From a virus, in IMG/VR virus record IMGVR_UViG_3300022836_000035, positions 1 to 25,631 of that record: DNA of 25,631 nucleotides; one strand, 5' to 3'. This document shows positions 2,832 through 8,138 of the stretch, in pieces (the first letter of the stretch is position 1; the number at the start of each line of letters is the position of its first letter). A program made the position numbers and the translations under genes. The notes beneath the pieces were generated by a model. The model was not told the origin of the DNA, made no database searches, and worked only from the letters and a program-made list of their open reading frames with translations.

Positions 2832-2839
2832 TAACCATA

Positions 2840-2868
2840 GGGGGAGTTAGCGCTCCTCCTTTACTTTT
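2840..2868 (+). terminator. Hairpin with T-rich tail after the DUF3127 gene
   Basis: Stem GGGGGAG at 2840-2846 pairs with CTCCTCC at 2853-2859 (one G-T pair) around a six-base loop, followed by a T-rich stretch 2860-2868. The T-run is broken by AC, so termination may be partial. It separates the DUF3127 gene from the odd-composition methyltransferase gene. Confidence 0.6.
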
Positions 2869-2874
2869 TAGATT

Positions 2875-3525
2875 ATGAAAATATTAAATTTATATGCTTG
2901 TCTAGGTGGCAACCGATACAAGTGGAACGAAGTTAAAGAAGATATAGAAGTTACGGCTGTTGAGTTAGACCCTGAACTAGCTAGATTATATCAAGAGAGA
3001 TTCCCTAATGATACTGTAATCATAGCAGATGCACATCAATACTTATTAGAACACTTTAAAGAGTTTGATTTTATTTGGAGCAGTCCGCCTTGTCCTACTC
3101 ATTCTAAAATAAGAGTTACTCAAAAAAACAGAAGTACATTTATACATAAATACCCTAATATGAAATTATACGAAGAAATACTATTTCTTGAAAATTTCTT
3201 TGACGGAAAATATTGTATAGAAAATGTTAATCCTTATTACACCCCTTTAATACCTGCTCAAAAAAGAGGAAGACATTTATATTGGACTAATTTTGAAATC
3301 CCTAAAAATTTAGGTTCAAGAAAAATAGAGGGAACATTATGTAAAACTACTAATGAAGTAAAAAAATTATGTGATTTTCATCAATACGATTTCTACCAAT
3401 ATAAGGGAAAACAAAGAAAAGACAAGATAGCAAGAAACCTAGTGGACTATGAAGTAGGAAAAACTATTTTTGAAACTATGTTAAATGTTGAAGAAAAAGA
3501 TATGAAACAAATAAAATTATTTTAA
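2875..3525 (+). CDS. Small DNA cytosine-C5 methyltransferase
   Basis: The 216-residue protein has C5-methyltransferase motifs: motif I-like LNLYACLGGN (4-13), motif II VELDPELA (29-36), the catalytic Pro-Cys in SSPPCPTHS (Cys73), ENV (116-118) and motif VIII-like QKRGRHLYW (129-137). It would transfer methyl from S-adenosylmethionine to cytosine C5. At 216 residues it is much shorter than free-standing enzymes (300-400), so little remains for a target-recognition domain; phages do carry such short forms. Codon use differs from its neighbours: by my count Glu is GAA 15 times and GAG 4 times, whereas neighbours prefer GAG, and AAA, TTA and AAT are common. That fits recent acquisition. Likely role: marking phage DNA against host restriction. 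The target site is unknown. Confidence 0.85.
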   Translation: MKILNLYACLGGNRYKWNEVKEDIEVTAVELDPELARLYQERFPNDTVIIADAHQYLLEHFKEFDFIWSSPPCPTHSKIRVTQKNRSTFIHKYPNMKLYEEILFLENFFDGKYCIENVNPYYTPLIPAQKRGRHLYWTNFEIPKNLGSRKIEGTLCKTTNEVKKLCDFHQYDFYQYKGKQRKDKIARNLVDYEVGKTIFETMLNVEEKDMKQIKLF

Positions 3526-3526
3526 T

Positions 3527-3745
3527 ATGAAAGACAAAATACTAGAGGATTTAAAAGCGGAGTTTGACGCACGCTCGGAGGCAGGGATAAAAAAATATAA
3601 TACTACTCTGGAGGATAACAACAAAGACGATTTTTTACAACACTTAAAGGAGGAGTTAATGGATGCCGCTTTGTATATCCAAAAGCTGCAATCTGTAGAG
3701 CCTAATTACTGCAAGTGTAACATAACCTATACACTCAATGAATGA
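3527..3745 (+). CDS. MazG-like (all-alpha NTP pyrophosphatase-like) small protein
   Basis: The 72-residue product contains ARSEAGIKKYNTTLE and later FLQHLKEELMDAALYIQKL. A GIxKYxxTL segment, a run of polar residues, then LxxHLxEExxDAxxYIxK is the pattern of small phage proteins annotated as MazG-like nucleotide pyrophosphohydrolases, where EExxD helps bind magnesium. Such enzymes clean or rebalance nucleotide pools during infection. The gene starts two bases after the methyltransferase stop and overlaps the next gene by eight bases. It is short, with one EExxD copy, so activity is uncertain. The cysteines near the end (YCKCN) are not explained. Confidence 0.5.
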   Translation: MKDKILEDLKAEFDARSEAGIKKYNTTLEDNNKDDFLQHLKEELMDAALYIQKLQSVEPNYCKCNITYTLNE

Positions 3746-4055
3746 TAGCGGAGATATTACAGCAAAGTTTACAGCTTCAGAGCAAGCTATCGACAAGCTA
3801 CAACAGCCGACTATTGAAATCGAGAGAACTCGCAACGCAATACGAGAAACTGAGAAACGAAACGAGGGAGTTAGAGCAGAGCTTGAGGCTATCCAAAAAA
3901 GAATTAAAAAAGGTTATAAGGCAATACGAGAAAGCTCAGACGAGCAGCAAAGAATTGCAGAGGCTCAAAAAGAAATCTCAAGACTTGGCGGTCTCATTGC
4001 GTGGCAAGACAACCGCAGCAAACAAGCGGATACTATTATCGAAAGGGGTTATTAA
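3738..4055 (+). CDS. Coiled-coil hypothetical protein
   Basis: A 105-residue, highly charged product predicted almost entirely helical, with a coiled-coil from about residue 14 to 84 and a short end (LIAWQDNRSKQADTIIERGY). A second open frame (3742-4077) covers the same bases and also gives a coiled-coil. I prefer this one because its codons look like those of the neighbours: purine-rich first positions, A/T-rich third positions, and aga, gca and gag codons, while the rival frame has many rare cag, ttg, agg and tcg codons. It overlaps the MazG-like gene by eight bases. No family recognised; a structural or partner-binding role in replication is possible. Confidence 0.6.
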   Translation: MNDSGDITAKFTASEQAIDKLQQPTIEIERTRNAIRETEKRNEGVRAELEAIQKRIKKGYKAIRESSDEQQRIAEAQKEISRLGGLIAWQDNRSKQADTIIERGY

Positions 4056-4073
4056 TAATAAACACATTTTGCA

Positions 4074-5471
4074 ATGATTAAACTCCGCCCATACCAAGAC
4101 GAAATAATTAAATCCTTGCGTAACTCATTTAAGAGAAACCGCAGGGTTATACTTTGCGCTCCTACGGGAGCAGGTAAAACGATTATGTTTACCTACTTAA
4201 TATCGGAGCATTTAAAACGCGGAGGGAACGTCCTAGTATTAACTCATAGGAGCGAGCTACTAAAACAAGCAGGTAGCTCTTTCGAGAAGTTTGGACTCAC
4301 TCCCGAATATATAACGAGCGGCTCAAAGCCAGACCTAGAGGCAAAACTCCACGTTGGAATGGTCGAAACAATAGACAGACGCAAAGAAACCTATACCGAT
4401 TTTATAGCGTCAAAAACTCTAATAGTAATCGACGAGGCTCACTTGAATATCTTTACCAAACTACTCCCTTTGATTAACCCCCTTGCTTATGTAATAGGAG
4501 CAACGGCTACACCAGAGCGAAAGGGAAAGGCTGCCGTATCTCTCGACGAGTTTTATACTGCTATAGTACAAAGAATAGATACTCCCGAACTTATTAAAAT
4601 GGGTTTCCTATCCTCTGCAAATAGCTACGGCGTGCCAATAGATACCAAAGGATTAAAGCGCACAGGAGCGGATTACGATACCGCAAGCTATTACGAGGAT
4701 AACAAAACATATATCGGAGTCGTAGATAACTGGGTACGTATTACAGAGAATACAAAGACCTTATTGTTCGCATCGAATGTAAGAAGCTCTAAGGTTGTAT
4801 GCGCTCAATTTAATGCAAGAGGATACGAGGCAAAACATATCGACGGAAACACCCCTAAGAATGAGCGAGAGGCGATACTACAATGGTACAACGAAACCCC
4901 GAAAGCAATTATCTGTAACTGCGGTATTTTAAACGCAGGATTTGACCAACCCGACATCGAGACTATAATACTATACAGAGCTACAACCTCGCTCCCTTTG
5001 TTTCTGCAAATGTGCGGACGAGGCTCAAGGACTACCGACAAACTAAAGACCTTTAATATCCTAGACTTTGGCAATAACATCAAACGGCTAGGGCATTGGG
5101 AGAATCCTAGAGACTGGAGTCTAAAAAAGAAACTTACAAGAGAGCAGCCTGCGCCCGTAAAAGATTGCCCTAAATGTAAGGCGATATTATTAGCCTCTAC
5201 AAAGGTATGTCCTTATTGCTCTCATAAATTCATAAATAAAAAAGAGGCAGAGATTGCTAGACTTGAGCTAATTAGAAACGATGTAATCAAAAACTATAGC
5301 GATATGTCAAACAAAGAGCTAGCGCAGGCAGTAAAGGATAAATATATAACTGCGGCGTGGGTATTGCATCGTAAAACTTGCCGAGAGGACGCTAGAGATT
5401 TCCTAGAGGCGGTGGGGTATAAAAAGAGTTTTGAGTATGTGAATAAAAAAAGATTTAAAGTTTTTAGTTAA
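4074..5471 (+). CDS. Superfamily II DEAD/DEAH-box helicase with C-terminal zinc ribbon
   Basis: The 465-residue protein has the superfamily II motifs in order: Q-like LRPYQDE (4-10), motif I APTGAGKT (29-36), Ia LTHRSELL (56-63), motif II DEAH (120-123), motif III GATATP (142-147), then motif V around NAGFDQPDIE and motif VI QMCGRGSR in the second RecA domain. It resembles the SSL2/RadD-type helicases common in phages. After the helicase core a four-cysteine zinc ribbon (CPKC...CPYC, about 364-382) and a helical tail follow. It should use ATP to unwind or remodel DNA during replication or recombination. Start ATG 4074 lies 18 bases after the preceding stop. The gene ends just before a host-type promoter. 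Confidence 0.9.
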   Translation: MIKLRPYQDEIIKSLRNSFKRNRRVILCAPTGAGKTIMFTYLISEHLKRGGNVLVLTHRSELLKQAGSSFEKFGLTPEYITSGSKPDLEAKLHVGMVETIDRRKETYTDFIASKTLIVIDEAHLNIFTKLLPLINPLAYVIGATATPERKGKAAVSLDEFYTAIVQRIDTPELIKMGFLSSANSYGVPIDTKGLKRTGADYDTASYYEDNKTYIGVVDNWVRITENTKTLLFASNVRSSKVVCAQFNARGYEAKHIDGNTPKNEREAILQWYNETPKAIICNCGILNAGFDQPDIETIILYRATTSLPLFLQMCGRGSRTTDKLKTFNILDFGNNIKRLGHWENPRDWSLKKKLTREQPAPVKDCPKCKAILLASTKVCPYCSHKFINKKEAEIARLELIRNDVIKNYSDMSNKELAQAVKDKYITAAWVLHRKTCREDARDFLEAVGYKKSFEYVNKKRFKVFS

Positions 5472-5476
5472 AAAGG

Positions 5477-5508
5477 TTGTTTATAAGTTAAAAAGATTTG
5501 TACCTTTA
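5477..5508 (+). promoter_or_regulatory. Bacteroidota-type promoter, first cassette
   Basis: TTG at 5477-5479 (the -33 element) and TACCTTTA at 5501-5508 (one mismatch to the -7 consensus TAnnTTTG) are separated by 21 bases. The pattern matches the flavobacterial vegetative promoter. The start of transcription would lie near 5514, giving a leader of about 16 bases, rich in A and C, before ATG 5530. The spacer has the same length, and similar last bases, as in the promoter at 7509. Confidence 0.7.
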
Positions 5509-5529
5509 CAAAAACAAAAACAAAACATT

Positions 5530-5706
5530 ATGGCTTACATTAAAATCGCAGACAGAAATTTAAAACAAGTTGAGGTAAAAATCATTAGTAGAAAATTAGG
5601 TTTACATACCGCTCAAGTAAGAGAAGACAGACGTAATAGATATATAAGCGACTATATTCTTTTTAACAATCTTACAGGAACGCCTTATATGGTAAAAGAG
5701 ATATAA
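5530..5706 (+). CDS. Small basic protein, paralog of the gene at 7572
   Basis: A 58-residue protein starting MAYIKIADRNLKQVEV and containing REDRRNRYISD and NNLTGTPYMVKEI. It aligns along its whole length with the 60-residue product at 7572, with about 30 identical positions. The shared pattern is YxKIxDRNLKxVxV, REDRxNRxxSD, FNxLTGxPYMV. The likely fold is beta-rich with a basic surface. No known family recognised. It has its own host-type promoter 22 bases upstream and a GGGGAG hairpin eight bases downstream, so it is probably strongly expressed early. A nucleic-acid-binding or host-takeover role is possible but not shown. Confidence 0.8.
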   Translation: MAYIKIADRNLKQVEVKIISRKLGLHTAQVREDRRNRYISDYILFNNLTGTPYMVKEI

Positions 5707-5714
5707 AAAACAAC

Positions 5715-5736
5715 GGGGAGGCAACTCCCCATTTTT
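5715..5736 (+). terminator. GGGGAG/CTCCCC hairpin with T-run
   Basis: Perfect six-base stem (5715-5720 with 5725-5730) around the GCAA loop, a GNRA-type tetraloop, then five Ts at 5732-5736. An A-run before the stem can extend the pairing. It lies between the first paralog and the 70-residue gene; with a short T-run it may be a partial terminator or an mRNA-stabilising end. Confidence 0.6.
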
Positions 5737-5748
5737 AAAACAAACAAA

Positions 5749-5961
5749 ATGAAAAACTTACTACAAAGATTAGACCCCGAATTAAAAACAAAGCTTGACC
5801 TTGTGACTCTAGAACACCCAGACACCGCTCAAATAATTATTGATTCATTAACCGCAACGGATAATGTATATCAACTTTCATTCGGTACAATGTCATATAT
5901 GCAAATGTTCTTAGGTATAGACCTAGATAGCTTTTACTACATATTTGATTATAATGATTAG
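5749..5961 (+). CDS. Hypothetical acidic protein, 70 residues
   Basis: Starts with ATG after the hairpin and an A/C-rich leader. The product has a helical first half (MKNLLQRLDPELKTKLDLV) and an aromatic, acidic end (GIDLDSFYYIFDYND). No transmembrane segment or cysteine motif is seen, and no family is recognised. It overlaps the nuclease gene by eight bases, which suggests translational coupling with it. It could assist or restrain the nuclease, but this rests only on position. Confidence 0.65.
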   Translation: MKNLLQRLDPELKTKLDLVTLEHPDTAQIIIDSLTATDNVYQLSFGTMSYMQMFLGIDLDSFYYIFDYND

Positions 5962-6283
5962 CGAGGTTAAAATACAATCACAGATATTTCAATGGCATTG
6001 GAATAACTACCCCAAAGAGAGAGGTTTGCTTTGCTATAACCTAAACAACTCCGCTAACAAAATAGACGGCAACAGAAACAAAGCGCTCGGATTAATCAAA
6101 GGGCGCGCGGATATGGTTTATTATTACAATAGCCACGCCATTATGATTGAGCTAAAAAACGCTAAAGGAAAGCAAAGCAAAGACCAGATACTATGGCAGG
6201 AATTACTAGAGTCTCAAGGATTCACATATATAGTTATTCGTAGCCTAGAGGAGTTTAAAAAATTTAAAGAACAATTATGTTAG
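5954..6283 (+). CDS. VRR-NUC domain nuclease
   Basis: From ATG 5954 the product is 109 residues: MISEVKIQSQIFQWHW, then GLIKGRADMVYYY, an IELKNAKGKQSKDQ segment, WQELLESQGF and a final strand YIVIRSLEEF. The order of an N-terminal glutamate, G-x-x-x-GRxD, ExK and a QSxxQ segment is that of the VRR-NUC (PD-(D/E)xK) family, whose phage members act as structure-specific endonucleases resembling Holliday-junction resolvases. Likely catalytic residues are the Asp of GRAD and the Glu and Lys of ELK. A TTG start at 5945 would add three residues; ATG 5954 is preferred because it overlaps the preceding stop in the way seen elsewhere here. Probable role: resolving or trimming replication intermediates. 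Confidence 0.85.
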   Translation: MISEVKIQSQIFQWHWNNYPKERGLLCYNLNNSANKIDGNRNKALGLIKGRADMVYYYNSHAIMIELKNAKGKQSKDQILWQELLESQGFTYIVIRSLEEFKKFKEQLC

Positions 6284-6903
6284 ACACGATAAAAAAAGCA
6301 GTCGAGAAAGTAACCGACTTAAAAATAGATAAGAATACAAGACAGAGAGAGTATGTAGTGGCTCGCTGCCTATACTTTCATTTTGCTAGAGAGCTAACGG
6401 GCAAACCATTTGCAGAGATAGGACAAAGCACAGGACACCATCACTCTTCAGTATTACACGCTTTAAAAAGTTTCGAAGTACATTACAAATACAGCGATTT
6501 TTTTAAACAAAGCTATCAAGCTCTTGCTTTGATTCTACAGCCTACAAAATCCAAGGAGGCTATAGACGAGGAGCATATATCTTTAGACGAGGCAAAGGAT
6601 AAGATTAAGACTTTAGTAAATGTTAACATAAAATTACACGCAGAGATAAAAGAGCTTAAAAATAACCTGCCCGATTTCGATAAGTATTTCAACGGCATAC
6701 CAAAAGAAAGAGTACAATTTTTTATTAATAACCAAATGAGCGCTTTCTTAAATATGGAACGCGCTACAATTAAAAAGCAACAAAGTTATGAGCGAGAAAA
6801 CTCCAAGATTAGAGAAACAAAGCAAACCGCTATCCAAGCAGATTTTGAGGAAACGGGTATCCGAGCTAGAAACAAGGCTTACAAATCTTCACTCCCTAGT
6901 TAA
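6277..6903 (+). CDS. DnaA domain IV-like DNA-binding protein
   Basis: Residues about 21-67 of this 208-residue protein match the DNA-binding domain IV of the replication initiator DnaA: TRQREYVVARCLYFHFAREL, then TGKPFAEIGQSTG and HHHSSVLHALK, where DnaA has an IG...HSTV signature that reads DnaA boxes. The AAA+ ATPase domain of DnaA is absent. The rest is helical, with a coiled-coil around 105-130 and a charged end. It likely binds the phage origin or other repeats, or competes with host DnaA. It overlaps the nuclease gene by seven bases and its last 116 bases are shared, in another frame, with the next gene. The DnaA resemblance is clear; the function is inferred. Confidence 0.8.
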   Translation: MLDTIKKAVEKVTDLKIDKNTRQREYVVARCLYFHFARELTGKPFAEIGQSTGHHHSSVLHALKSFEVHYKYSDFFKQSYQALALILQPTKSKEAIDEEHISLDEAKDKIKTLVNVNIKLHAEIKELKNNLPDFDKYFNGIPKERVQFFINNQMSAFLNMERATIKKQQSYERENSKIRETKQTAIQADFEETGIRARNKAYKSSLPS

Positions 6904-6994
6904 AAACATCGCGCACAATCAAGAAGCAATAGTAACCGCTTTATCGTCTAACGAAATTAAAGACGTAGACGAGGCACAAACCACAGGATTATGA
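6788..6994 (+). CDS. Small coiled-coil protein overlapping the DnaA-like gene
   Basis: A 68-residue frame that starts inside the 3' end of the DnaA-like gene (overlap 116 bases) and stops with an ATGA overlap at the next gene. The first part is basic (KTPRLEKQSKPLSKQILRKR), followed by a coiled-coil (VSELETRLTNLHSLVKNIA) and an acidic tail. Codons in the part outside the overlap look normal for this phage. It contains only one Met, so a later ATG start is not available. Either the overlap is real, or translation enters the frame in another way, such as a TTG start or a frameshift from the upstream gene. No family recognised. Confidence 0.6.
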   Translation: MSEKTPRLEKQSKPLSKQILRKRVSELETRLTNLHSLVKNIAHNQEAIVTALSSNEIKDVDEAQTTGL

Positions 6995-7176
6995 ATTACG
7001 ACCTAATAGATAACATCGAAGTAGACGGAATAGATACAAACGACTATCCAGACTTTTGCGACGCTTTTATAGTCTCAGCGGACTACGAGGGCAAAGCAAT
7101 GACAGACGAGCAAATAGATACCTTAAACGAGGATTACAACTTTATACACGACTGCGTTTATACACAACTTTTTTAA
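6991..7176 (+). CDS. Conserved small acidic phage protein, 61 residues
   Basis: The product MNYDLIDNIEVDGIDTNDYP... continues with FCDAFIVSADYEGKAMTDEQ and LNEDYNFIHDCVYTQLF. The run 'DYPDFCDAFI...A...G..MTDEQ...LNED..F' resembles a small, recurring protein of Bacteroidota phages, recalled from general knowledge, with no assigned function. It is strongly acidic. The start codon overlaps the preceding stop (ATGA) and the next gene begins at the base after its own stop, so the three genes form one translational unit. Confidence 0.7.
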   Translation: MNYDLIDNIEVDGIDTNDYPDFCDAFIVSADYEGKAMTDEQIDTLNEDYNFIHDCVYTQLF

Positions 7177-7470
7177 ATGAGCATACCCGTAATATTTGAC
7201 AATCCTCACGAATTTTTTGAGGAGGCTACAAATCAAAACTATACAGACGCGCACGATTTATTTTATAGGTCTATGGTCGAGTATTTGCTAGACGAGTCTA
7301 TACAGTATGTATGTACGTTTATTTATAACGAATACGACAAGTATCATTTTGAGCCGCTATGTGACGACGACGAGCAGATTCTCTCCAGAGACGCCCTGCT
7401 TTACTTTGAATATATCGAGGAGTACGAATCCTGTCAATTAATATTTGAGGTTTTAAACGTTGAGGATTAG
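7177..7470 (+). CDS. Hypothetical acidic protein, 97 residues
   Basis: Starts directly after the previous stop codon. The product is very acidic and aromatic, with predicted helices (HEFFEEATNQNYTDAHDLFY, RSMVEYLLDESIQYVCTFIY) and ends in EVLNVED. No membrane span or known motif. Highly acidic small early proteins in phages sometimes mimic DNA and block host DNA-binding proteins, but there is no direct support for that here. It is the last gene before the second host-type promoter. Confidence 0.7.
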   Translation: MSIPVIFDNPHEFFEEATNQNYTDAHDLFYRSMVEYLLDESIQYVCTFIYNEYDKYHFEPLCDDDEQILSRDALLYFEYIEEYESCQLIFEVLNVED

Positions 7471-7508
7471 ATAGTTATAAATTATTTTTGAGAAATGTTG
7501 TTTTTTAT

Positions 7509-7540
7509 TTGGTGTAAACAAATAAAGGTTTGTATATTTG
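7509..7540 (+). promoter_or_regulatory. Bacteroidota-type promoter, second cassette
   Basis: TTG at 7509-7511 and a perfect TAnnTTTG (TATATTTG) at 7533-7540, separated by 21 bases. Transcription should start near 7547, leaving a leader of about 25 bases, rich in A and C, before ATG 7572. This places an upstream in-frame ATG at 7530 inside the promoter, so it cannot be the start codon for this transcript. Confidence 0.8.
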
Positions 7541-7571
7541 TATCAAACAAAAACAACTAAACACAAAAATT

Positions 7572-7754
7572 ATGAGCTACGTTAAAATTTCAGACAGAAA
7601 CTTAAAAAAAGTAAAAGTAACGATACTATCTCAAGGTAATAAATTTTCAAAAGTAATTAGAGAAGATAGAGTTAACAGATTTGTTAGCGACGTAGTATTC
7701 TTTAATAAATTAACAGGTAAGCCTTATATGGTTAACGTAAAAGAACTAGCATAA
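7572..7754 (+). CDS. Small basic protein, paralog of the gene at 5530
   Basis: The 60-residue protein begins MSYVKISDRNLKKVKVTILS and contains IREDRVNRFVSD and FFNKLTGKPYMVNVKELA. It is a full-length paralog of the 5530 product; the least conserved part is residues 21-29. I chose ATG 7572 because the other protein starts at the matching residue (MAYIKIADRN) and because an ATG 14 codons upstream lies within the promoter. No known family recognised. Two separately promoted copies suggest a dose or timing effect, or divergence of function. A GGGGAG/CTCCCC hairpin follows eight bases after the stop. Confidence 0.85.
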   Translation: MSYVKISDRNLKKVKVTILSQGNKFSKVIREDRVNRFVSDVVFFNKLTGKPYMVNVKELA

Positions 7755-7762
7755 CAACCAAA

Positions 7763-7781
7763 GGGGAGCTAACTACTCCCC
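7763..7781 (+). promoter_or_regulatory. GGGGAG/CTCCCC hairpin without T-run
   Basis: Perfect six-base stem (7763-7768 with 7776-7781) with a seven-base loop, then an A-rich stretch and ATG 7798. Without Ts it is a poor terminator; it may protect the upstream transcript end or limit translation of the next gene. The stem is identical to the one at 5715. Confidence 0.5.
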
Positions 7782-7797
7782 AAATAACAAAAACCCT

Positions 7798-7959
7798 ATG
7801 GAATTAAAAACAGCACTTAATAGATTATTCGACAAAGACCTAGATTTAAACTCTAAGCAGCAGCATATTTTAATTACAATTATAGGCGCGCATTCGAGGC
7901 ACGAATTTAAAGCAGGCTTACAAGCTGCAAAGGAATTAAAAAAAACCCTAGACTTTTAA
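7798..7959 (+). CDS. Small hypothetical protein, 53 residues
   Basis: ATG 7798 to stop 7959. The product is predicted mostly helical: MELKTALNRLFDKDLDL, a middle part QQHILITIIGAHSRHEF and a lysine-rich end AAKELKKTLDF. The central stretch is only weakly hydrophobic, so a membrane span is unlikely. No family recognised. It lies between the second paralog and the last small early gene, three bases before the latter's start, and is probably expressed from the promoter at 7509 by read-through of the hairpin. Confidence 0.55.
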   Translation: MELKTALNRLFDKDLDLNSKQQHILITIIGAHSRHEFKAGLQAAKELKKTLDF

Positions 7960-8082: not shown

Positions 8083-8110
8083 TTTTGTTTAGTTTTGTTT
8101 AGTTTTGTTA
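8081..8110 (+). repeat. Three tandem 10-base repeats (AGTTTTGTTT)
   Basis: The units are AATTTTGTTT, AGTTTTGTTT and AGTTTTGTTA, with no gap. The 10-base period nearly equals a DNA helical turn, so the TTTTG cores lie on one face, as in a protein-binding site or a bent segment. They sit directly before the terminator at the early/late boundary. Confidence 0.75.
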
Positions 8111-8111
8111 G

Positions 8112-8138
8112 CCCTGCCTTAATCGGTGGGGTTTTTTT
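8112..8138 (+). terminator. Strong intrinsic terminator at the end of the early region
   Basis: Stem CCCTGCC (8112-8118) pairs with GGTGGGG (8125-8131) around the loop TTAATC, with two G-T pairs, followed by seven Ts (8132-8138). It lies between the last small early gene and the late promoter-like motif before the terminase genes. Confidence 0.8.

Follow-up and report, generated by a model that had tools for sequence, protein, structure and literature searches.

Small accessory genes of a marine flavobacterial siphophage group very likely move as cassettes into and out of fixed docking slots that have host-type promoters of their own. This slot system lies around two small genes, A and B, in a stretch of viral DNA of 25,631 nucleotides (IMG/VR record IMGVR_UViG_3300022836_000035, positions 1 to 25,631; "the window" throughout), and it is the system, rather than the gene pair, that we regard as the main finding; A and B themselves are probably two lineages of one accessory family occupying two such slots. 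An original prediction from the same DNA had described two units of common plan, each with a TTG-21 bases-TAnnTTTR promoter, an A/C-rich leader, a protein of 58 or 60 amino acids and a GGGGAG/CTCCCC hairpin, and had read them as a duplicated cassette kept for an important early function such as host takeover or counter-defence. All of the described features were found in the window, and comparison with related phages leads to a different account of their history.

To define the slots, we took contigs with the helicase gene left of A or the 97-amino-acid gene left of B and cut out the span up to the right-hand neighbour. This gave 28 distinct sequences for site 1 (11 of them empty) and 34 for site 2 (7 empty), that is, 44 filled and 18 empty slots. 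The filled slots hold about 32 families of open reading frames (ORFs), mostly of 40-110 amino acids and unrelated to each other, and among the ORFs that were searched most had no recognisable relatives. Of the 44 filled slots, 32 had the GGGGAG hairpin, and the 18 empty ones all lacked it; the next ATG follows 13-30 nucleotides behind most hairpins. The promoter is kept in empty and filled slots alike (the empty slot 2 of contig L094 and the filled slot of L062 have the same promoter), so the idea that each gene has its own promoter must be given up: it remains where the slot is empty or holds an unrelated gene. Backbone proteins of the sister contigs are mostly 85-96% identical to those of the window (median identity: helicase 94%, TerL 96%, TerS 94%, 97-amino-acid gene 88%), with lower medians for the DnaA C-terminal-domain protein (65%), the 53-amino-acid gene (71%) and the 70-amino-acid gene (58%); the best match of the large terminase was Nonlabens phage P12024L, a 35.7-kb phage (47% identity). 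This comparison of sister sequences shows the two gene positions to be fixed slots, the promoter belonging to the slot and the contents being exchangeable. The elements of the two slots in the window are as follows.

4074 to 5471, plus strand: DEAD-type helicase (ResIII/Helicase_C), left flank of slot 1
5477 to 5508, plus strand: slot-1 promoter, TTG-N21-TACCTTTA, kept in relatives with empty slots or other contents
5509 to 5529, plus strand: A/C-rich leader of gene A
5530 to 5706, plus strand: gene A, 58 amino acids, family MAYxKISDRNLK...REDR
5715 to 5730, plus strand: slot-1 hairpin GGGGAG-GCAA-CTCCCC, then ATTTTT; next ATG 18 nucleotides on; -12.8 kcal/mol with flanks
5749 to 5961, plus strand: 70-amino-acid gene (MKNLLQ...), right flank of slot 1
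7177 to 7470, plus strand: 97-amino-acid gene, left flank of slot 2
7509 to 7540, plus strand: slot-2 promoter, TTG-N21-TATATTTG, from string match and comparison with relatives
7541 to 7571, plus strand: A/C-rich leader of gene B, from the sequence
7572 to 7754, plus strand: gene B, 60 amino acids, same family as A
7763 to 7781, plus strand: slot-2 hairpin GGGGAG-CTAACTA-CTCCCC, no U-tract; next ATG 16 nucleotides on
7798 to 7959, plus strand: 53-amino-acid gene (MELKTAL...), right flank of slot 2
8110 to 8133, plus strand: terminator-like U-tract hairpin closing the slot-2 unit, from the sequence

The unit that moves was delimited with five families that occur in both sites, in different phages: the A/B family, MKAVTRQ, MTTLNLT, MTQAKYK and MTYLxAT. 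In these cross-site pairs identity was 70-99% for the ORF, 69-87% for the leader and 79-100% for the hairpin, the promoter and flanking genes not sharing in it (upstream gene 51-53%, downstream gene 53-56%, against a random baseline of 50%). In the alignments strong similarity begins at about the -7 element and stops at the hairpin; therefore the moving unit comprises leader, ORF and hairpin, and the alignments show the promoter and the sequence past the hairpin to belong to the slot.

The history of A and B follows the same pattern. Protein A of the window is 91% identical to the slot-2 gene product of the sister phage L009 and 74% identical to a family member in L014, which belongs to a different phage group, compared with 54% to B, and the tree groups A with L009 and L014 without B (support 95/94). 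Since A is nearer to the slot-2 gene of L009 than to B, the two are separately acquired members of the family and not a fresh duplication, and two separate acquisitions are the simplest account. In L001 the A gene is identical to that of the window and slot 2 holds an unrelated gene of 49 amino acids, which is followed by this kind of hairpin. Both A and B occur together only in the window and in two contigs with identical slot sequences, and most sister phages have neither; the gene is therefore dispensable, and the keeping of two copies can no longer be read as a sign of importance.

The proteins A and B are identical at 30 of 55 aligned positions (54%) and are basic, with isoelectric points of 9.9 and 10.2, both in agreement with the original prediction. 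A comparison of A with its closest variant gave nonsynonymous (dN) and synonymous (dS) rates of 0.063 and 0.86, and on these rates the family is genuinely protein-coding and under purifying selection. Residues invariant in the family are M1, Y3, K5, I6, DRNL, V16, REDR and one later D. AlphaFold2 predicted a strand-strand-helix-strand arrangement for A (predicted local distance difference test, pLDDT, 83) and for B (pLDDT 82). The original prediction presupposed relatives in other phages, and scans of IMG/VR located the family in the phage group of the window and in several others (L014, L015/L016, L017, L018, L023 and L026). Its signature had been called unrecognisable, and profile searches with A and B likewise returned nothing significant (best E-value: Pfam, 0.097; PHROGs, 0.11; PDB, 0.12). 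A tblastn search of A against 50,697 phage records gave no relative, and Foldseek gave no structural match with an E-value below 1e-3. The small phage inhibitors p56, Dmd and T7 Gp2, of strand-strand-helix-strand shape, appeared at VIA Z values of 4.6, 4.1 and 3.9, which lie inside the chance range. A host origin of the family was also considered and is unsupported, as no relative appeared when 84,980 genomes of bacteria and archaea were scanned twice, a search that reaches only sequences with short-motif matches. The L018 member, over 79% of its length, matched protein QIG62338.1 of Tenacibaculum phage JQ at 42.9% identity (E-value 3e-3; 22 of 53 positions), and this protein is a probable distant relative: it has a TAnnTTTG-type promoter upstream, but it differs from the family in lacking the MAYxKISDRNLK start, the REDR motif and the hairpin. 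We conclude that A and B represent a new family of small ORFan proteins of uncertain function.

For the promoters, the pattern TTG-N18..22-TAHHTTTR was present in 25 of the 28 distinct site-1 and 26 of the 34 distinct site-2 slot sequences, compared with 0.3 and 0.6 in shuffled sequences. Taken by itself, the window offers weak evidence, with 6 matches to the pattern versus 1.35 expected and 6 reached in 1 of 100 shuffles. The string could thus owe something to chance in one genome, but the relatives decide the matter and the promoter was accepted as real. Its form fits the Bacteroidetes consensus TTTG/TANNTTTG (PMC6847099), which supports the original view of a host-type promoter, here of the Bacteroidetes sigma-ABfr kind. 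Bacteroidetes translation also favours adenines ahead of the start codon (PMC6847099). In part of the group an element AAATGTTAAAGTTTTGTTAAAATT stands upstream of the promoter, at site 1 in L032, L033 and L057 and at site 2 in L001, L053 and L029; it may mean that longer promoter regions are exchanged too, or it may be an UP-like element.

The GGGGAG/CTCCCC hairpin was matched twice in the window (0.00 expected), each time starting 8 bases past a stop codon. Across the relatives, slot-1 hairpins mostly have TTTTT behind them and slot-2 hairpins mostly do not. A scan of the collection for the hairpin pattern returned 74 stretches, unrelated contigs among them, in several of which a U-tract follows the hairpin; by itself the motif looks like a common type of terminator and is informative only in the slot context. 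Nor is it specific to the gene pair, because many unrelated slot genes have it and a third, nearly identical stem lies elsewhere in the window. A conserved structured element of 63-64 nucleotides, GACGGGAGTT...GGTCGTTGCGCGGTTAC...CTCGTC followed by TTTTTT, was observed at the slot-2 end of some sister phages (L029, 9084-9146; L030, 4361-4423; L052, 9137-9200; L064, 2700-2762), in two of these four contigs directly behind the GGGGAG hairpin. A longer terminator and a small RNA are both possible readings of it; Rfam gave no match for this element or for the window.

In this phage group, hairpins of the GGGGAG type occur mainly at three places, namely in slot 1, in slot 2 and where the DUF3127 (SSB-like) gene ends. 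The third place in the window comprises two elements.

2839 to 2860, plus strand: third hairpin, downstream of the DUF3127 gene: AGGGGGAGTTAGCGCTCCTCCT with a T-rich tract behind it; stem nearly the same as in slots 1 and 2
2875 to 3525, plus strand: C5 cytosine DNA methyltransferase, content of slot 3; in sister phages missing or exchanged for an N4/N6 methyltransferase

Behind this hairpin the place is empty in some phages, is filled by the C5 cytosine methyltransferase in the window and its closest relatives, and is filled by an N4/N6 methyltransferase in others (window 2875-3525 compared with L031, L038, L036 and L050). Unrelated DNA methyltransferases that swap places are most easily taken as a shield against host restriction. 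By analogy, this slot suggests a link between the small slot genes and host interaction, through guilt by association and not as proof.

Other features were noted around the slots. Site 1 of L006 contains an ORF of 162 amino acids with a MUG113/T5orf172 (GIY-YIG-type) domain as slot content, and near slot 1 of L008 lies an ORF of 159 amino acids (3164-3643) resembling a putative GIY-YIG homing endonuclease, which is absent from the window. Downstream of slot 1, the window encodes a protein with a DnaA C-terminal domain (6277-6903; PF08299, E-value 1.3e-10), for which a replication or regulatory role is possible. At 3738-4077, two candidate ORFs of 105 and 111 amino acids overlap almost fully in different frames, and both are open in L008 too.

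From these results we propose the following mechanism. A slot would consist of the sigma-ABfr host-type promoter and a place behind it that is empty or holds one cassette, made up of the A/C-rich leader, a small ORF and the GGGGAG/CTCCCC hairpin. Cassettes would be exchanged through homologous recombination at two short stretches that they have in common, one being the leader directly past the -7 element and the other the hairpin. They would be lost by recombination between A/C-rich leaders on either side of the cassette, as is suggested by L152, which retains the empty-slot string AAAACAAAATTTTATATT behind its hairpin. This recombination route is fairly probable. The hairpin would serve as a terminator or attenuator, presumably stronger in slot 1, where it has a U-tract, and leakier in slot 2, where it has none, so that a cassette gene would be expressed early and strongly, and the genes that follow it at a lower level. 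The earlier statement that each unit heads a run of early genes fails for the second unit, in which only two more small genes precede the hairpin at 8110-8133. Least certain is the function: A and B may be directed against the host early in infection, as counter-defence proteins or as small inhibitors of host enzymes, a role that we put forward tentatively as one possibility. Host takeover or counter-defence is still plausible because of the location of the genes in the slots and the exchangeable methyltransferase slot with the same hairpin.

Several points weigh against this account. The hairpin is absent from 12 of the 44 filled slots and is thus not obligatory, and the members of the A/B family in L017, L018 and L023, outside this phage group, also lack it. 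Among cassette genes a recognisable function was assigned only to the methyltransferases and to one MUG113/T5orf172 protein. Tyrosine (PF00589) and serine recombinases, ERF, YqaJ and RecT were not found in 9 records, all of which are possible fragments. Early timing and terminator strength, finally, are deduced from base sequence.

Alternatives were weighed against the exchange of cassettes between slots. The best of them, though unlikely, is a moron-type insertion, in which self-contained transcription units, each bringing a promoter and a terminator, enter between backbone genes. It would explain genes of unknown origin between conserved neighbours, with a promoter upstream and a stem-loop downstream, and the direct adjacency of the flanking genes in relatives with empty slots (18 distinct sequences). 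Against this, the promoter stays in empty slots and so is not part of the insert, and the next gene follows within 13-30 nucleotides of most hairpins, a distance too short for a separate promoter, so that transcription is not closed off within the unit. Improbable in our view is a dedicated, selected exchange system, formed by slots, hairpins and A/C-rich leaders, that rotates a common pool of dozens of small counter-defence genes among fixed early promoters and in which some activity encoded by the phage would recognise the hairpin as its substrate; to name the nearby VRR-NUC nuclease (5957-6283) as the hairpin-recognising enzyme is only a guess.

An integron-like system, in which the hairpin would be a folded recombination site and a site-specific recombinase would insert cassettes behind a fixed promoter, is a shade less probable again. 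The architecture is similar, with a fixed promoter, a mobile ORF with 3-prime hairpin, empty slots and two to three docking points. Kinship with integrons was dropped because the attC core RYYYAAC/GTTRRRY is absent from the hairpin (AGCTAAC has G at position 2) and neither type of recombinase was found in the 9 possibly fragmentary records; in addition, hairpins of the same type have a terminator-like U-tract in several unrelated contigs, and identity of leader and hairpin suffices for ordinary recombination. We give slightly less credit still to autoregulation, in which the small basic protein would bind the GGGGAG hairpin of its own mRNA and thereby control downstream genes. Feedback of this kind is used by many phages, the protein is basic, and the hairpin adjoins its gene in the window, L009 and L014. 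This reading was abandoned because many unrelated genes have the same hairpin behind them; moreover, the members in L017, L018 and L023 do without it, and that of L026 has a different, U-tract terminator. A simple duplication, with promoter, gene and hairpin copied inside this phage lineage and retained as important, is the least probable of all, since the common plan and the DNA identity of about 73-75% in aligned stretches are set against the closer relationship of A to the L009 and L014 genes than to B in both identity and tree, the service of the same promoter and hairpin to unrelated genes, and the absence of one or both copies from most relatives.

Exchange of cassettes between fixed slots has consequences beyond the A/B family. 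Dozens of small genes without relation to each other change places in the slots of sister phages; this suggests a reserve of exchangeable early genes, probably directed against the host. Slot position, that is, a gene between the promoter and the GGGGAG hairpin, picks out about 32 small phage gene families from metagenomes without recourse to homology and predicts these families, mostly without known function, to be early and host-facing. To our knowledge, few anti-defence genes are known from Bacteroidetes phages. The cross-slot copies, in turn, give a rare clear view of the movement of small accessory genes between phages, with breakpoints narrowed to leader and hairpin.

Similar arrangements are known from other systems. 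In archaeal viruses, small, poorly conserved single genes stand behind a conserved strong promoter region, and several of them proved to be defence inhibitors (PMC11065993). There, as here, the promoter region is common and the gene sequences differ, and discovery through regulatory sequence uses the same logic; the present system differs in belonging to a bacterial phage, in its two docking sites and common 3-prime hairpin, and in being known from sequence alone. Prophage loci with full defence systems resemble it as fixed loci that hold interchangeable accessory genes in related phages, whereas each slot described here takes one small ORF, preceded by a host-type promoter, and no integrase was detected in these phages. 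The closest parallel is offered by the promoter-early stem-loop (PeSL) elements of T4-type phages. As PMC4503421 describes them, citing Arbiol et al. 2010 and Comeau et al. 2014, genes are shuffled by means of promoter and stem-loop motifs, a host-like early promoter and a stem-loop mark the shuffling of small nonessential genes among close relatives, and the regulatory elements are the likely homology. The present slots likewise have a host-type promoter at a variable locus (25 of 28 and 26 of 34 slots, shuffled 0.3 and 0.6) and genes shuffled among close relatives (32 families, five in both slots, breakpoints at leader and hairpin). They differ in that promoter and hairpin stand on opposite sides of a single gene instead of forming one composite intergenic motif, that the promoter remains in the slot, that the slots are fixed and few in number, two besides the one for the methyltransferase, and that these phages are related to Nonlabens phage P12024L and not to T4-type myoviruses. 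Because promoter and hairpin are not composite and the phages are not T4-type, the slot system is not a member of the PeSL class, but it works like one.

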